Positions 3,081 to 8,816 of a DNA stretch of 8,943 nt are shown in pieces. A program made the translations under genes and the position numbers. Position 1 is the stretch's first letter. Each line of letters starts with the position of its first letter. Origin of the DNA: Chloroflexota bacterium (GTDB lineage Bacteria; Chloroflexota; Dehalococcoidia; UBA3495); contig JACZXN010000044.1 in assembly GCA_022571575.1 (NCBI GenBank), positions 1 through 8,943 on the forward strand, given 5' to 3'. The notes beneath the pieces were generated by a model. The model had not been told where the DNA came from, searched no databases, and saw only the letters and a list, made by a program, of their open reading frames with translations.

Positions 3081-3099
3081 AGGAGGAGCATCAGGGGTG
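3081..3099 (+). promoter_or_regulatory. Shine-Dalgarno supporting a GTG start for ftsH
   Basis: AGGAGG (3081-3086) lies 10 bases before the GTG at 3097 but 16 bases before the next in-frame ATG at 3103. The spacing favours the GTG start. The two alternatives differ by only two residues, so the protein is essentially unaffected. Confidence 0.7.
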
Positions 3100-5313
3100 A
3101 ATATGGGTAATAACCGGTGGCTTCGGAACAGTTTCGTGTACCTGATGATCATAATCGGGGTGATTGTGATTTTCTACACGCTGTTGCCCAGCTTCGGGGC
3201 CCGCAGTGAAGAGCCGCTGACCACCGTGGTGGCCATGGCCAAGAACAACGACATCCGGGAGATCATCATAGACGGCCGGAAGCTTACCGTCTTCCCCAGG
3301 GGCGGCAGTTCGGCCGGGACCGACCGGTTCACCAGCCGTATCGGCGCCGACACAGACGTGCTGGGCCTGCTGGTGGAGAGCGGTGTGGCGATAGGGCCGC
3401 CCACCGGCGTGCAGGTGACTTTCAAAGGCTCCAGCGGCCTTAGCAGCCTCTTTGGGCTGATGCTGAACTTCCTGCCCCTGATCTTCTTCGGCGGCCTGAT
3501 CCTATTCATGATGCGCCAGGCTCAGGGCAGCAACAACCAGACCATGAGTTTCGGGCGCAGCCGCGCCAAGATGATGACCTACAACAAGCCCACGGTGTCG
3601 TTCGACGATGTGGCGGGGGTCGATGAGGCGAAAGAAGAACTCCAGGAAGTGGTCGAGTTCCTCAAATTCCCCGAACGGTTCACTGCCTTGGGCGCCCGCA
3701 TCCCCAAGGGCGTCCTGTTGGTCGGCCAGCCCGGCACCGGCAAGACCCTGATGGCCAGGGCCGTGGCCGGAGAAGCCGGGGTGCCCTTCTTCCACATCAG
3801 CGGCTCCGAGTTTGTGGAGATGTTCGTGGGCGTTGGTGCGGCGCGGGTCCGGGACCTGTTCGAGCAAGCCAAGCGCAATGCCCCTTGTATCGTGTTCGTG
3901 GACGAGATCGACGCGGTGGGCCGCCACCGTGGCGCCGGTCTTGGCGGCGGACATGACGAGCGGGAGCAGACCCTGAACCAGATACTGGTTGAGATGGACG
4001 GCTTCGAGACCAACACCAACATCATCGTGTTAGCCGCCACCAACCGGCCGGACATCTTGGACCCGGCCCTGCTGAGGCCCGGACGCTTTGACCGCCGGGT
4101 CACCCTGGACCTGCCCGACATCAGAGGGCGCATGGACATTTTGAAGGTCCATGCCGCGGGGAAACCCCTGGCCCCGGAAGTCACCTTTGATGCACTGGCC
4201 AAAGAGACGCCCGGATTCAGCGGCGCCGACCTCTCCAACCTGATAAACGAAGCGGCCATCATGGCGGCGAGACGCAACAAGAAGTCCATCTTCATGGAAG
4301 ATTTCGAAGAGGCCGTAGACCGGATCATCGCCGGCCCTCAACGCAAGAACCGGGTGATCAACCCCCGGGAAAAGGAGATGACGGCCTACCACGAAGCCGG
4401 CCATGCCCTGGTGGCTTGGGCCCTGCCCCACGCCGACTCGGTGCATAAGATTTCGATCGTCGCCCGGGGCAACATGGGCGGCCATACCTCTCTGATCCCG
4501 GAGGAGGAACGTTACCTGTGGACCAAGAATCAGTTCGGCGACAGAATGGCGGTCACCATGGGCGGCCGGGTCGCGGAGCAGATCATCTTCGACGAGGTGA
4601 CCACCGGCGCGAGCAATGACCTGGAGCAGGCCACCAAGCTGGCGCTGGGCATGATCAAGCGATACGGGATGTTCAGCGCGAAAGCCTACCCGGAAATGTC
4701 CTTCAGCACCGTCATCGAGAAAGCCCGAAGCGGCAGCATCGCCTCGATCGAGATGTTCGGCAACGACCTGCTCGTACACTTGGCCGACGGCTCAGAGTTC
4801 AAATCCCGGAAGGAGGATCGGTTCCTGCTTGCCAAGTTCAACGAGGACCTGATCGCGGAAGGCCTGCAACCGGTCACGATCGTGGTCAAGGATTCTCATA
4901 GTCTCGATGGACTGGGCGCACCTCGAACTTTCGGAAAAATCCAGGAAATGGTGTTCCTCGGCCGCGATATGGGTACTGAGGAAAAGGACTACGGCGATAA
5001 GCTGGCGGAAGAGATCGATCACGCGGTCACGGGCTTGATGAACAGCGCTTACGAGCAGGCGGTTGAAGTCATTAAAGCTCATCAGTCCAAGCTGGTCAGA
5101 CTCGCCGAATTCCTGATCGAACATGAGACGGTGTCCGGCGAGGTGATGAACCGCCTATTCAACGCCGATGACGAAGCCAGCGGCGAGCCGGCCAACCCAG
5201 TTACGCCGCCGGAACCGGACACACCGCCCTCCTTCAATCCGTCCCAACCCCAGCCGGCGTCGCCCCAGCCGGTGCCCACCCTGTCGTCGACCTCAGGCAA
5301 AGGGGAAAGCTAG
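3097..5313 (+). CDS. ftsH: ATP-dependent zinc metalloprotease FtsH with an unusual insertion
   Basis: A membrane-anchored AAA+ protease that degrades misfolded membrane and selected soluble proteins as a hexamer. Domain order: TM1 (about 12-31), extracytoplasmic FtsH_ext domain (about 36-112), TM2 (about 118-139), AAA+ module (about 165-410), M41 zinc peptidase (about 420-690) and a Pro-rich tail (691-738). Walker A is GQPGTGKT (210-217), Walker B ends in VFVDE (266-270), the pore-loop aromatic is F243 (EMFVG), and the arginine fingers are R327 and R330. The zinc site is HEAGH (H432, E433, H436) with D508 as third ligand. All catalytic residues are present, so the enzyme should be active. At 738 aa it is longer than the usual 600-660. 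About 76 residues (530-605) are inserted inside the peptidase domain and resemble a second FtsH_ext domain. The gene has its own promoter and terminator. hflKC lies downstream on the same strand, separated by an antisense gene. Confidence 0.97.
4684..4911 (+). other. FtsH_ext-like domain inserted in the FtsH peptidase domain
   Basis: In ordinary FtsH the segment after the third zinc ligand runs straight from GMS-x-LG to the FG..EE.VFLG motif. Here GMFSAK (524-529) and LGAPRTFG (606-613) are separated by about 76 residues. The inserted part starts [19 protein letters not shown] (534-552) and continues [14 protein letters not shown] (555-568). This is the pattern of the FtsH extracytoplasmic domain (typically YSEFL..V..G.V..V...G..I...L.DG..F). 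It can also be aligned with this protein's own N-terminal domain ([19 protein letters not shown], 42-60). Both flanks remain in frame and conserved, so this is an insertion and not a frameshift. The resemblance is judged by eye. Confidence 0.7.
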
Positions 5314-5356
5314 CGGGCCGCGGCGCAGGTACATCCGGAACCCCGGAAATCATGAA

Positions 5357-5388
5357 GGGGCTGGTCTAAGACCAGCCCCTCGTTTCTT
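5357..5388 (+). terminator. Rho-independent terminator of ftsH
   Basis: A perfect 10-bp stem GGGGCTGGTC / GACCAGCCCC (5357-5366 and 5370-5379) has a TAA loop. It is followed on the plus strand by TCGTTTCTT, a moderate U-tract, 43 nt past the ftsH stop. The gene on the other side is convergent, so the hairpin may also slow transcription from that direction, though its minus-strand U-tract is weaker. Confidence 0.85.
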
Positions 5389-5414
5389 GAGGTCCGATGC
5401 CCCCGGCGATCGGG

Positions 5415-5693
5415 TTAGGGCTTCGCGTCCTCTGCTTCGGCGTCATCTTGATCCCTGGGCAGTTCACGGAAATAGATGCCCCACTGCTGCATCAACCCCC
5501 GGACCTCCGGGCTTTTCAGGGCGCTGAGATCTCTGAAGAACCCGGCCAGGGCGTGGGCGGGCAGGTGGTCTTGGTCACAGACCCAACTGCGCTCCGCGGG
5601 CACCACGTAGATCAGACCGCGCTGGTGTTGGCACACGGCCCTGATCCGAACCATATCGTTCCCTGGGATTATCTCCAGGCCGGCTGTAGTCAT
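5415..5693 (-). CDS. Small protein of unknown function (92 aa), antisense between ftsH and hflK
   Basis: I do not recognise this protein. The start chosen is the ATG at 5693, because AGAAGG lies nine bases upstream. A longer reading from a GTG at 5720 would add nine residues and bury that site. The product begins MTTAGLEIIPGNDMVRIR and has no signal peptide or membrane segment. A compact mixed alpha/beta pattern (RGLIYVVPAERSW, then a helix-like HALAGFFRDL..VRGLMQQWGIYFREL) precedes an acidic tail DQDDAEAEDA (81-90). Cys and His residues are grouped as C21-x-H23 and C39-x3-H43-x3-H47, which might bind metal but might be chance. It has its own TATAAT box and a separate Shine-Dalgarno, and it fills the only gap between ftsH and hflKC. 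Overlapping open frames on the plus strand look less protein-like. That it is a real gene is likely but not certain. Confidence 0.65.
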   Translation of the reverse strand: MTTAGLEIIPGNDMVRIRAVCQHQRGLIYVVPAERSWVCDQDHLPAHALAGFFRDLSALKSPEVRGLMQQWGIYFRELPRDQDDAEAEDAKP

Positions 5694-5706
5694 GTGCTCG
5701 ATCCTT
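5685..5706 (-). promoter_or_regulatory. Shine-Dalgarno that sets the start of the 92-aa gene
   Basis: On the minus strand AGAAGG followed by nine bases and ATG (5693-5691) gives near-ideal spacing. This favours the 92-aa form over the GTG start at 5720, which has no comparable site at the right distance. Confidence 0.55.
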
Positions 5707-5750
5707 CTTCGGTCCTTCACGGAACATATTTGCCTGGCTTAGCGGTCTGC

Positions 5751-5767
5751 CCGGCGCCGGTATTATA
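5751..5767 (-). promoter_or_regulatory. Candidate promoter of the 92-aa gene: TATAAT next to a perfect palindrome
   Basis: A perfect TATAAT lies on the minus strand (5767-5762), about 70 bp before the ATG at 5693. No good -35 is visible 16-18 bp upstream (GCCTAT at 17). Immediately downstream, where transcription would start, lies the perfect 10-bp palindrome CCGGCGCCGG (5751-5760). It could be a repressor site or simply a GC-rich coincidence, since GGCGCC is common in this DNA. Confidence 0.45.
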
Positions 5768-5807
5768 CCCCGCGCCGTACCCGCATAGGCCACCCGTTCA
5801 GGGCTAA

Positions 5808-6053
5808 AGGGGGTAGACAACCAGGTCCGGGCAGTCCAAAGACCGCCGGAAAACGTAATGTTGGTGTGGCGCGCCATGGCAGGAGCCGGCCTGGGACCCA
5901 GAGCGGCAGTCCTTGGAACGGCCACGGCGCCTGTGGTTCGGAGAACGGCTAAGATGATAGAATCTACAGAGCTTCGAAGATAATGGGCTGTCCGGCCCTT
6001 ATGAGCCCGGCCGGCGCCGTACAAAACAGGATAGGAGTAAGGAAAAGACAAAC
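5808..6053 (+). promoter_or_regulatory. Upstream region of hflKC with a candidate extended -10 promoter
   Basis: This stretch holds no supported gene. The best promoter candidate is an extended -10, TGA-TAGAAT (5955-5963), with only a weak -35. It predicts a start near 5970 and an 85-nt leader. Immediately before hflK the purine-rich AAGGAAAA (6039-6046) gives a Shine-Dalgarno about 10 bases from the ATG at 6054; AGGAG at 6033 is too far away. A 35-codon open frame at 5876-5983 has no ribosome site and was not called. Confidence 0.4.
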
Positions 6054-7751
6054 ATGTATCAACCCGGAGGCGGACCCAGGACACCCGAATTAGACTTTGA
6101 CCAGATCATGACCAAGATACGCGACGGCGTCGGCCGTATCTCCCAGCGTTTGGGGGGCGGCGGAATGGGGTTGGCGGCGGTCCTGATCGTGGGCCTGATA
6201 TTCGTTATCTGGCTGGCCACCGGAATCTACACCACCAGCCCCGGCGAGCAGGCCGTGCTCCGCCTGTTCGGAAAAGCCGAGCCGGCTCCCGTGATTCAAA
6301 ACGGCCTTCACTGGTGGTGGCCCGGTCCCATCGGCAATAGAGACGTCGTGAGGACCGACTTGGTGCGCCGCCTGGAACTCGGCTTCCGGAGCGGCGAAGG
6401 CGTGGCCGACACGCCGGTGCCCGTGGAAGCCCAGATGATCAGCGGCGACCTGAACATCATCGACGTGCAGATGGTGGTCCAATACGACATCAAGGACCTG
6501 ACCAGTTTCCTCTTCCGGGTGGACGACCCCGGAGAGGAAGCCGGGTCGCAACGCAGTATCGAGCCCGGACGGCCGGACGGCCGGACCTTGAAGGACGCCA
6601 CTGAAGCGGCCCTCCGCCTGGTGGTGGGGCAGCGTTCCCTGGCCGAGGTCCTGGCCGAAGAGCGCGTTAACTTGGAGATAGACACCAGGATAAAACTGCA
6701 GGAGATCATTGACGGCTACAACACCGGCATAAATATCGTCAGCGTGGAGCTGCAGAGGGTGGAGGCGCCGTCGGAGGTCCAAGCCGCCTTCAACGACGTG
6801 CTCCAAGCCCGCCAGGACAAGGTGACGGCCACCAACCAGGCCCAGGCCTACGAGAACCAGGTGCTCCCTGAAGCCAGGGGCCGGGCCGAACAGATAATCC
6901 AGCCGGCAGAGGCGTTCAAACGGGCCAGGATCGCAAGGGCCCAGGGTGAAGCCGACCAGTTCCTGTCCATCTTGGCCCAGTTCAACGACCGGTCCATCAC
7001 ACTGGCCAACGTGCTTCAGGACACGGACAACGCCGACGGCGACGACGACCCAACCACCGGCATCGGGCTTTTGGACGTGGCCATGATCGCGGCGCCCGAC
7101 CTGGACGGAAACGGGTTCGACATACTGGTCGCCAGCATAACGGTATTGGGAGGGTCCGATTGCGCGTTCACCGCCCAGGAGGTCCTCACCACCGCGGCGA
7201 CCCAGACCTGCGATTTCTCAGCGGCTTTCGCCGCGCAATCCGGCGACCTGACCATCGGCGAAGCCTTCTCCATCGCCTACTTGGGCAATGAAGACCTACT
7301 GATCCCCCAGTTCGTGGGCGCCGGGCCCTTCAGCGTCCGGCTGGGCAACCGGGCCCTGGACACTGACAACGCCGACCGCGACAACGACCCGGCCACCGGG
7401 ATCTCCGCCGCCGATATCACCGTGGTGGACGGCCCCGATGGCGGAGCAGTCCCCGGAGTGGACATCTCGGTGTCGGGTTTCGACCCGGCCAACAACATCG
7501 TGACCTTCCGCGTCCAGCCTGGAGAGACCCTCCGGGCCGGCGACCTGTTCACCGTCCAGTACCTGAACCAGGAAGACCTGGCCGTTCCGGCCACCAGCCT
7601 GGTCACCCAGGAAAGGCTGTTCCTGGAGGCCATGGAGGAAATACTGCCGGTGATCAACAAGATCATCGTTTCGCCCGACGCGGAAACGGTCTTGATACTC
7701 GGCGGCCAGGGCGGGATCGTTCCGGTCCCGGTGGGACCGGCTGCCCCGTAG
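6054..7751 (+). CDS. hflK: HflK, SPFH-family FtsH modulator, with a large tandem-repeat insertion
   Basis: The membrane SPFH protein that with HflC forms a cage around FtsH and limits its attack on membrane proteins. Layout: Gly-rich cytoplasmic N-terminus (1-38), one TM (about 38-57), SPFH domain starting YTTSPGEQAVLRLFGK (59-74) with GLHWWWPGPI (84-93), and a charged coiled coil (about 248-310, including ARQDKVTATNQAQAYENQVLP). The family's C-terminal helix is TQERLFLEAMEEILPVINKIIV (518-539), ending in a hydrophobic tail (545-561). In normal HflK the segment GEADQFLSILAQF joins directly to T-x-ERL-x-LEAMEE. Here about 204 residues (313-516) intervene. Without them the length would be about 361, normal for the family. 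A shorter extra loop (about 158-179) interrupts the SPFH domain after FRVDDP. The only two cysteines (C370, C386) lie in the insertion. hflC follows after 81 nt with no terminator between, so the two are probably co-transcribed. Confidence 0.95.
   Translation: MYQPGGGPRTPELDFDQIMTKIRDGVGRISQRLGGGGMGLAAVLIVGLIFVIWLATGIYTTSPGEQAVLRLFGKAEPAPVIQNGLHWWWPGPIGNRDVVRTDLVRRLELGFRSGEGVADTPVPVEAQMISGDLNIIDVQMVVQYDIKDLTSFLFRVDDPGEEAGSQRSIEPGRPDGRTLKDATEAALRLVVGQRSLAEVLAEERVNLEIDTRIKLQEIIDGYNTGINIVSVELQRVEAPSEVQAAFNDVLQARQDKVTATNQAQAYENQVLPEARGRAEQIIQPAEAFKRARIARAQGEADQFLSILAQFNDRSITLANVLQDTDNADGDDDPTTGIGLLDVAMIAAPDLDGNGFDILVASITVLGGSDCAFTAQEVLTTAATQTCDFSAAFAAQSGDLTIGEAFSIAYLGNEDLLIPQFVGAGPFSVRLGNRALDTDNADRDNDPATGISAADITVVDGPDGGAVPGVDISVSGFDPANNIVTFRVQPGETLRAGDLFTVQYLNQEDLAVPATSLVTQERLFLEAMEEILPVINKIIVSPDAETVLILGGQGGIVPVPVGPAAP
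6990..7601 (+). other. Insertion of two Asp-rich tandem repeats in HflK
   Basis: Repeat A begins DTDNADGDDDPTTGI (323-337) and ends GEAFSIAYLGNEDLLIP (402-418). Repeat B begins DTDNADRDNDPATGI (436-450) and ends GDLFTVQYLNQEDLAVP (496-512). Each contains an N-terminal Asp-rich loop like calcium-binding D-x-D-x-D loops (thrombospondin type-3 or dockerin style), then alternating hydrophobic residues that suggest beta strands, then the shared motif F-x-x-x-YL-x-x-EDL-x-x-P. The lengths are about 96 and 77 residues. Flanking HflK sequence is intact and in frame. By analogy with E. coli HflK topology the insertion sits outside the cytoplasm, at the turn between the two coiled-coil segments. Calcium binding and adhesin-like fold are inferences. 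Confidence 0.8.
7020..7403 (+). repeat. DNA-level direct repeat encoding the DTDNAD motif
   Basis: The 45-nt segments 7020-7064 and 7359-7403 match at 39 positions by eye, and most differences are synonymous or conservative. They encode the Asp-rich starts of repeats A and B of the HflK insertion. The spacing of 339 nt is a multiple of three. The similarity fits an internal duplication that has been partly preserved. Confidence 0.75.
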
Positions 7752-7832: not shown

Positions 7833-8816
7833 ATGAGGAACCTAGTCATCGCCGGGGTAGTGGTTATCCTGGTCATAATAGTCGTATCACAGAGCCTGTT
7901 CGTGGTGCAGGAAACCGAGCAGGTGGTGGTCACCCGCTTCGGTGACGTGCAGAGCATTCACACTGCGCCCGGCCTCTTCCTGAAAGCCCCATTCGTGGAC
8001 ACCGTCATCTCCTACGACAGACGGTTGCTGCGTATCGACGCCCCGCCCGACCGGTTCTTGGACAAGGACATCAACATCTTGGAGATCGATGTTTACGGCC
8101 GGTTCCTGATCAGCAACCCGCGTGAGTTCCTGCAGACGCTGACCACCGAAGACAACGCCCGCCGGATCCTGGCCCAACGGATCAACTCGTCCCTTCGCGC
8201 CGAGGTCGCCAAGCGCAGCCGTGAAGAGATCATCGGCGGCAACGTCGAATTGGACGAATCCGGCGCACCGGTGACCGACGACGAGGGCAACACCCGCGTC
8301 CAGCCCACCAACTCCCGGACGGATTTGTTGAACGACGTGATCGCGGCAGTCCAGATCAACCTGGCCCAGGAAGACCCGCCCTTCGGCGTCGTCATGGTGG
8401 ACATCCGCATCAAGCGCGCCGATTTCCCGGTGGAGGTGGCCGGCCGGATCTTCGAGCGGATGCGGTCGGACCGTGAGAAGATATCCCGCCGGTTGCGCGC
8501 CGAGGGTGAGGAAGAAGCCCGCACCAGGAGGGCCGCCGCCGACCGGGAGGTTGAGGTCATCCTGGCCGAGGCCGACAGAGACGCCTCCCGGCTCCGTGGT
8601 GACGGCGAGGCCCAGGCCATCTCGATACTGTCCGAGTCCCTGAACCAGGACCCCGAATTCTTCTCGTTCCAGAGGAGTCTGCAAGCCTATAAGACCTTCT
8701 TGAACCAGCGGACCACGGTCATTCTGTCCTCAGAGGCCGACATCTTCAAGTTCTTACAGAGTCCCGGAATCGGCACCAGCGCCACCTTTGGCGACAGCGC
8801 CGCCGGCACCCAGTAA
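7833..8816 (+). CDS. hflC: HflC, SPFH-family FtsH modulator
   Basis: Partner of HflK in the membrane complex that surrounds FtsH. The 327-aa length is close to the usual size (E. coli about 334). Layout: short N-terminus, one TM or signal anchor (about 4-22), SPFH domain starting FVVQETEQVVVTRFGDV (23-39) with APGLFLKAPFVDTV (45-58), and the conserved VDIRIKRADFP (189-199). A charged coiled coil (about 204-262, rich in R/E/A, ending RLRGDGEAQAI) follows. The family-typical end PEFFSFQRSLQAYKTFL (274-290) is followed by VILSSEADIFKFL (296-308). A polar, acidic loop of about 25 residues (137-162, with DESGAPVTDDEGNTR) interrupts the SPFH region where most HflC proteins are shorter. The ATG at 7833 follows AAAGGGG (7821-7827) by five bases. 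It is the second gene of the hflKC operon and is followed by a terminator-like hairpin. Confidence 0.96.
   Translation: MRNLVIAGVVVILVIIVVSQSLFVVQETEQVVVTRFGDVQSIHTAPGLFLKAPFVDTVISYDRRLLRIDAPPDRFLDKDINILEIDVYGRFLISNPREFLQTLTTEDNARRILAQRINSSLRAEVAKRSREEIIGGNVELDESGAPVTDDEGNTRVQPTNSRTDLLNDVIAAVQINLAQEDPPFGVVMVDIRIKRADFPVEVAGRIFERMRSDREKISRRLRAEGEEEARTRRAAADREVEVILAEADRDASRLRGDGEAQAISILSESLNQDPEFFSFQRSLQAYKTFLNQRTTVILSSEADIFKFLQSPGIGTSATFGDSAAGTQ

Follow-up and report, generated by a model that had tools for sequence, protein, structure and literature searches.

In E. coli, FtsH is the protease served by the HflK/C cage. What HflK/C does in FtsH proteolysis is not settled, with an open and a closed cage set against each other (excerpts of PMC12048511 and PMC13220708). 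Insertions into SPFH proteins have a precedent in the SPFH1a proteins, which carry 22-residue insertions at one site in a patchy set of species; the excerpted text of PMC2636767 attributes them to lateral transfer and describes them as lying just before the SPFH domain, short and almost unconserved. How does the present locus compare? In place of a short and variable stretch, it carries a conserved tandem module of 203 residues, predicted to be folded, in HflK, and some relatives carry one such module in HflC.

The window (the whole stretch of 8,943 nucleotides that was analysed) has hflK beside hflC, as in E. coli, with ftsH nearby (Table 1); an ammonium transporter gene and a sulfurtransferase-like gene lie on its minus strand. 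The 740 bases between ftsH and hflK (5314-6053) contain no tRNA and no Rfam match. HflK scores 207.6 bits against TIGR01933 (curated cut-off 159.4), the best stretch of this match stopping at residue 312, and its SPFH/Band 7 domain is preceded by an N-terminal membrane helix, placed at residues 38-55 by an AlphaFold2 model of modest confidence. HflK and HflC resemble those of the E. coli FtsH-HflK/C cage (7VHP, 7WI3, 9CZ2) in sequence across the SPFH domains, the long coiled-coil helix and the C-terminal helix. The difference is that E. coli HflK is continuous at 317/318, whereas here 203 residues in two modules intervene. Judged by sequence, the locus encodes a variant of the known FtsH-HflK/C complex that is new in its module decoration, with putative metal binding and a putative function. 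The first-pass annotation knew of no such HflK, and none is described in the literature searched on HflK and Chloroflexi, SAR202 and SPFH/HflK insertions, which was available in part and included few subscription papers; PMC10153343 is among these sources, and the excerpts of PMC8889253 draw no link between HflK and Chloroflexi.

The insertion at the turn of HflK

Table 1. Features of the window, in window coordinates
Feature	Position	Strand	Basis and remarks
ftsH	3097..5313	+	TIGR01241; same neighbourhood as hflK/hflC
hflK	6054..7751	+	565 aa, carries the insertion; TIGR01933 above cut-off, PF01145 at residues 60-265
HflK long coiled-coil helix	6780..6986	+	residues 243-311, runs into the insertion; AlphaFold2 helix, partly low-confidence; E. 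coli HflK profile match to 317
Insertion, 203 residues (314-516)	6993..7601	+	empty site in L013-L024
Repeat 1 (R1), residues 314-425	6993..7328	+	repeat alignment
R1 Asp-rich loop, residues 323-341	7020..7076	+	133-sequence alignment
Cys370	7161..7163	+	133/133; probable disulfide partner
Cys386	7209..7211	+	133/133; probable disulfide partner
Repeat 2 (R2), residues 426-516	7329..7601	+	repeat alignment; copy resembling the HflC module
R2 Asp-rich loop, residues 436-454	7359..7415	+	missing from about half of homologues
HflK C-terminal helix resuming after the insertion, VTQERLFLEAMEEILPV	7602..7652	+	alignment, AlphaFold2, E. coli HflK match
hflC	7833..8816	+	327 aa, module-free here; TIGR01932 219.8 bits and alignment

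Where exactly does the insertion sit? At this point of the alignment the site is empty in ten further HflKs of Chloroflexota (L013-L022) and in two Acidobacteriota HflKs (L023, L024), and in all of them the coiled coil continues directly into the C-terminal helix. When the family profile is matched to E. coli HflK, the part before the insert ends at 317 and the part after it restarts at 317, so the insert falls exactly in the turn between the two helices. The first-pass annotation had described about 200 residues, made of two Asp-rich repeats, that split the long coiled coil from the C-terminal helix; both statements are borne out, with residues 314-516 lying within three bases of the coordinates it gave and the split at E. 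coli HflK residue 317/318. The similarity of the repeats also holds: R1 and R2 align locally with a score of 128, whereas 1000 shuffles reach 59 at most, and at the DNA level a 63-nt stretch recurs with 79% identity at a spacing of 339. Each repeat opens with an Asp-rich loop, DTDNADGDDDPTTGIG in R1 and DTDNADRDNDPATGIS in R2, and R1 has an extra segment bearing two cysteines.

How well are these elements conserved? The alignment used for this holds 133 sequences, namely the window, the 120 homologues listed and 12 loci, with L009 cut by a contig end. In the R1 loop, D323, D328, D330, T335-G336-I337-G338 and D341 are present in 133/133 and D332 in 132/133, while position 325 is D in 129 sequences and N in 4. 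Cys370 and Cys386 are the sole cysteines in 130/133 (the exceptions are P0015, L007 and L008) and form a probable disulfide in R1. As the 133 sequences are mostly close relatives, the contrast between regions outweighs raw counts of invariance. Near-invariant columns number 11 of 20 in the R1 loop (322-341) and 17 of 84 in the remainder of R1, 0 of 19 in the R2 loop and 24 of 62 in the remainder of R2, and 121 of 254 in HflK core residues 60-313; by this contrast, the R1 loop is conserved like the HflK core. The R2 loop segment is of full length in 64/133, absent in 64/133 (including L009) and intermediate in 5/133. Its 16 residues are cleanly gone in L002, L010 and L011, lineages that are not sisters: L002 and L010 are nearest to the loop-bearing L003 (support 88) and L004 (support 100), and L011 stands apart. 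Loop-less copies beside loop-bearing neighbours imply that the R2 loop was lost repeatedly or exchanged. The earlier description of calcium-binding-like loops in both repeats thus stands in part: both repeats have the Asp loop and that of R1 is near-invariant, but that of R2 is dispensable among homologues, so any calcium role rests on R1.

EF-hand and dockerin loops have alternating Asp, then Gly-Ile and a later Asp. The loops of the insert share this pattern, with a spacing that we take not to be canonical for either, and the R1 loop is possibly metal-binding. Unlike those loops, the insert has no profile match to the known calcium-binding families searched (EF-hand, dockerin, SdrD_B and others in Pfam) and no significant PDB match by sequence. 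Pfam as a whole returns no family at E <= 1 for the insert of the window, its filters dropping most matches above about 0.1, and Big_8 comes up at E 0.046 in one of 16 members; NCBIfam gives no convincing match. The first-pass annotation had weighed a disordered segment, and this is not what is predicted: the insert alone folds in AlphaFold2 with pLDDT 88.2 and pTM 0.84 in the best of five models, one of which is poor (pLDDT 50.5). The model of full-length HflK has a mean pLDDT of 58.7, is poor outside the insert and yields no usable cage geometry. Foldseek finds no match at E <= 0.001, the β domains of S-layer, MSCRAMM and phage capsid proteins included (Sap, SbsC, SdrD, ClfA; P23-77 VP16/VP17), and its best values, 0.0089 in the PDB and 0.0098 among viral models, fall within the range given for common arrangements. 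The lack of a fold match does not in itself establish a new fold. On these models, the insert is predicted to be a folded β-module without a clear match to a known fold or family, and as such is an additional domain family, unmatched in the libraries searched.

Distribution and history of the module

Of 7997 proteins scored in a search with HflK, 1286 reached E <= 0.001, and the 120 of these that were listed are 547-588 aa long, 80-91% identical and all of insert length. The HflK insert occurs in 12 of 250 genomes of the order to which G001, the nearest relative among the genomes analysed, belongs. Against the same 250 genomes, a profile of the module gave 30 matches in 17 genomes, every one in HflK or HflC and none in a third protein. 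Twelve genomes (G001-G012) have it in HflK, two copies each (in pieces in G009), and five (G016, G017, G569, G571 and G572) have it in HflC, one copy each. All 17 fall in one family of 50 genomes; the other 33 of the 50 have no module match, some being incomplete there. In a phylum sample of 400 genomes the module appears in G001 only. In a phylum sample of 301 genomes, 18 exceed the hflK cut-off, and of these only G001 was judged to carry an internal insert: within its 588-aa frame the match ends at profile position 221, and in the other 17 it extends to 248-260. The insert-bearing bacteria, a lineage of SAR202-type Chloroflexota, are mostly uncultured and known from metagenome assemblies. 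Two weak matches were discarded as chance, G086 (E 0.004), which by eye sits in a protease-like ORF, and G163 (E 0.010), whose frame lies opposite an ATPase-like gene. A viral, phage or plasmid origin was set aside, as plasmids, phages and viral contigs gave no module match at the sensitivity used (none of 8 pattern matches was confirmed).

How did the module come to be on HflC? Run on 22 genomes, the insert profile found the HflKs and also, in G016 and G017, an ORF next to hflK that proved to be HflC. These HflCs are 403 aa long, with the extra segment just before FGIEI(I/V)DVRIKRADF; the site is in the SPFH2 region, near E. coli HflC residues 190-201, and not at the roof turn. The L016 HflC module aligns to R2 with a score of 126 (shuffle maximum 58) and to R1 with 39, below the best of 1000 shuffles (55). 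Of 14 aligned HflC modules, 8 lack the Asp loop. With HflC modules as queries, two protein searches returned 7 and 6 proteins, all with a Band 7 domain and 304-421 aa long. At roughly this loop the HflCs of two other Chloroflexota, L019 and L020, carry a long insertion of another kind, so the loop tolerates insertions. In all five HflC-module genomes the neighbouring HflK has an empty site. HflC is module-free in the 12 HflK-insert genomes, by locus alignment in 10 and, in G006 (split over contigs) and G009, by an HflC profile match uninterrupted across the site. None of the 17 genomes thus has the module on both subunits. Zero overlap of 12 and 5 in 50 genomes has a chance probability of 0.24 and the events are few, so mutual exclusivity is suggestive and was not taken as established.

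The core tree was built from HflK and HflC cores (48 rows, with L005, L009, L019 and L020 left out; L018 and L078 are one genome). It joins the window and eight other insert-bearing HflKs with support 100; next to this clade come the empty-site L015 (100) and then L013/L014 (45), while the insert-bearing L007/L008 are placed away from it. The HflC-module proteins L016, L017, L057 and L059 group together (99), and L055 is poorly placed (36). In the module tree, which holds 9 of 13 HflC proteins from the searches (the other 4 did not match the extraction pattern), the HflC modules form one group (100) and so do the R1 copies (88), in the same order as the cores; the R2 copies do not come out as one group (support 26). 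This pattern fits a single duplication within an ancestral HflK array, with the HflC copy separate and with later losses or transfers. R2 of eight window-clade sequences is 0.61-0.74 identical to that of L007/L008 (core 0.61-0.62) and 0.60-0.70 to that of L006/L012 (core 0.71-0.76). There are hints here of lateral transfer of the HflK insert; vertical descent with losses would also be viable, because the R1 tree follows the core tree.

Simple pairwise counts give dN/dS values of 0.06-0.42 for R1 and 0.08-0.73 for R2 (ten pairs) and of 0.05-0.22 for the core (eleven pairs), the R2 maximum coming from L007-L008, a pair with few synonymous changes. All pairs compared lie below 1, and the value exceeds that of the core in nine of the ten R1 pairs and in eight of the ten R2 pairs. 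By these values the insert is under purifying selection, with weaker constraint than on the core. The higher values of the module, together with the module-free genomes of the family, indicate that it is not essential to the cage.

What the module may do for the cage

What could two β-modules do at this position? Our best explanation, which we hold with even confidence for and against, is a lineage-specific array of folded extracytoplasmic modules with which the FtsH-HflK/C cage is decorated, docking or anchoring being the most likely purpose. Two tandem copies stand at the HflK turn, where the coiled coil gives way to the C-terminal helix, and R1 would be held by a Cys370-Cys386 disulfide and a metal-binding Asp loop; given these two features, R1 would mature outside the cytoplasm. 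If the cage is built as in E. coli, from 24 subunits with HflK and HflC alternating, its upper rim would bear a ring of about twelve double modules. They probably point outward, because the roof helix bends inward and the simplest course for an insertion at that point would be to project from the outer rim, an orientation taken from the geometry of relatives and not from a model of this cage. In the human SPFH cages described in the excerpts of PMC12624060, the CC2 helices of Erlin1/2 turn by about 80 degrees relative to CC1, into the middle of the cage, and the CC1-CC2 transition of PHB1/2 is a sharp bend of about 55 degrees. A docking surface would link the cage with a partner or substrate, or with an outer envelope layer; that the modules do serve as such a docking or anchoring surface is plausible, at somewhat less than even confidence. 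Some sister genomes may meet the same need with one HflC module and, as the HflC site is away from the roof turn, this would require a module that works from two places. The wider proposal, an undescribed β-module family that serves the FtsH-HflKC cage solely, is swappable between subunits (double on HflK, single on HflC) and brings a new recognition or anchoring function, is a more tentative one. Nature offers the comparisons, with and without the module, and on HflK or on HflC. Should the module act in docking, its partner would reveal what a bacterial SPFH cage can tether to.

The main rival to docking is a clamp on the curvature or opening of the cage, in which the modules would act as structural wedges, touch neighbouring subunits at the roof edge and fix the curvature or close the lateral opening, a possible route of substrates to FtsH, and would bind no partner outside the cage. 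An E. coli cage locked closed by engineered cross-links impairs growth under tobramycin (excerpts of PMC13220708), and a mutation at the CC1-CC2 transition destabilises PHB1 (excerpts of PMC12624060), so an insertion there could affect assembly. We consider a clamp unlikely, however, since the module on HflC, which sits in another loop within the SPFH2 region, would be badly placed to clamp the roof, and sister HflKs manage without any insert. Could the insert instead be a near-neutral passenger that entered in frame, is tolerated at two variable loops and was perhaps spread by a mobile in-frame element or recombination? Its patchy distribution would agree with this, as would the patchy insertion of unconserved sequence in SPFH1a proteins (excerpts of PMC2636767) and the observation that, next to the HflC site, residues 161-190 of E. 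coli HflC are unmodelled in most subunits (excerpts of PMC12048511). A dN/dS below 1, the invariant R1 loop and cysteines and the confident predicted fold speak against it and make it quite improbable. A mobile in-frame element in particular was rejected, as no copies turned up in unrelated genes (30/30 matches in HflK or HflC, 250 genomes).

Docking also has to be weighed against a calcium-gated switch, in which the Asp loops would bind calcium, the module would change shape and the cage would respond to calcium. The R1 loop, near-invariant in 133 sequences and predicted to be ordered, is what one would expect of such a switch. The loop is missing from R2 in about half of the sequences and from most of the aligned HflC modules, and there is no match to a known calcium family; we regard a switch as a long shot. 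As sea-water calcium is roughly constant, a structural metal is likelier. Finally, that the insert is a chimera of assembly or binning, an outcome the first-pass annotation had allowed for, is hardly credible: one further fragment, a thirteenth case in HflK (L040 in G027, from a class sample of 393 genomes, nearest to L007/L008), does come from a genome outside the order's matches, with an HflC frame that breaks into other sequence on a contig that looks joined, and is possibly misbinned, but the window's insert recurs at an identical junction in 12 genomes and in the 120 listed homologues, of several sources, and this rules a chimera out for the window.

An insertion in FtsH

FtsH of the window has an insertion of its own, 80 residues in the M41 peptidase domain after KRYGM (window 4672-4911). 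It is present in 9 of the 17 FtsHs seen in the loci (window, L001, L003, L004, L009, L010, L011, L016 and L017), all with an HflK or HflC module, and 9 of the 250 order genomes match it at E < 1e-40. A one-to-one link with the β-module was rejected, being broken by L002, L006, L007, L008 and L012, which have the module without the FtsH insertion, and by G577, which has the FtsH insertion without a module match and whose HflC is a fragment only. In G444, G525, G526, G527 and G528, two matches lie in one frame of FtsH size or longer. The insertion resembles the extracellular domain of FtsH itself (compared with the N-terminal domain of this group's FtsHs, hhalign gives a probability of 95.5% and E 1.3e-8), and it would be an odd arrangement, a copy of a periplasmic-type domain in the cytoplasmic part of the protease.
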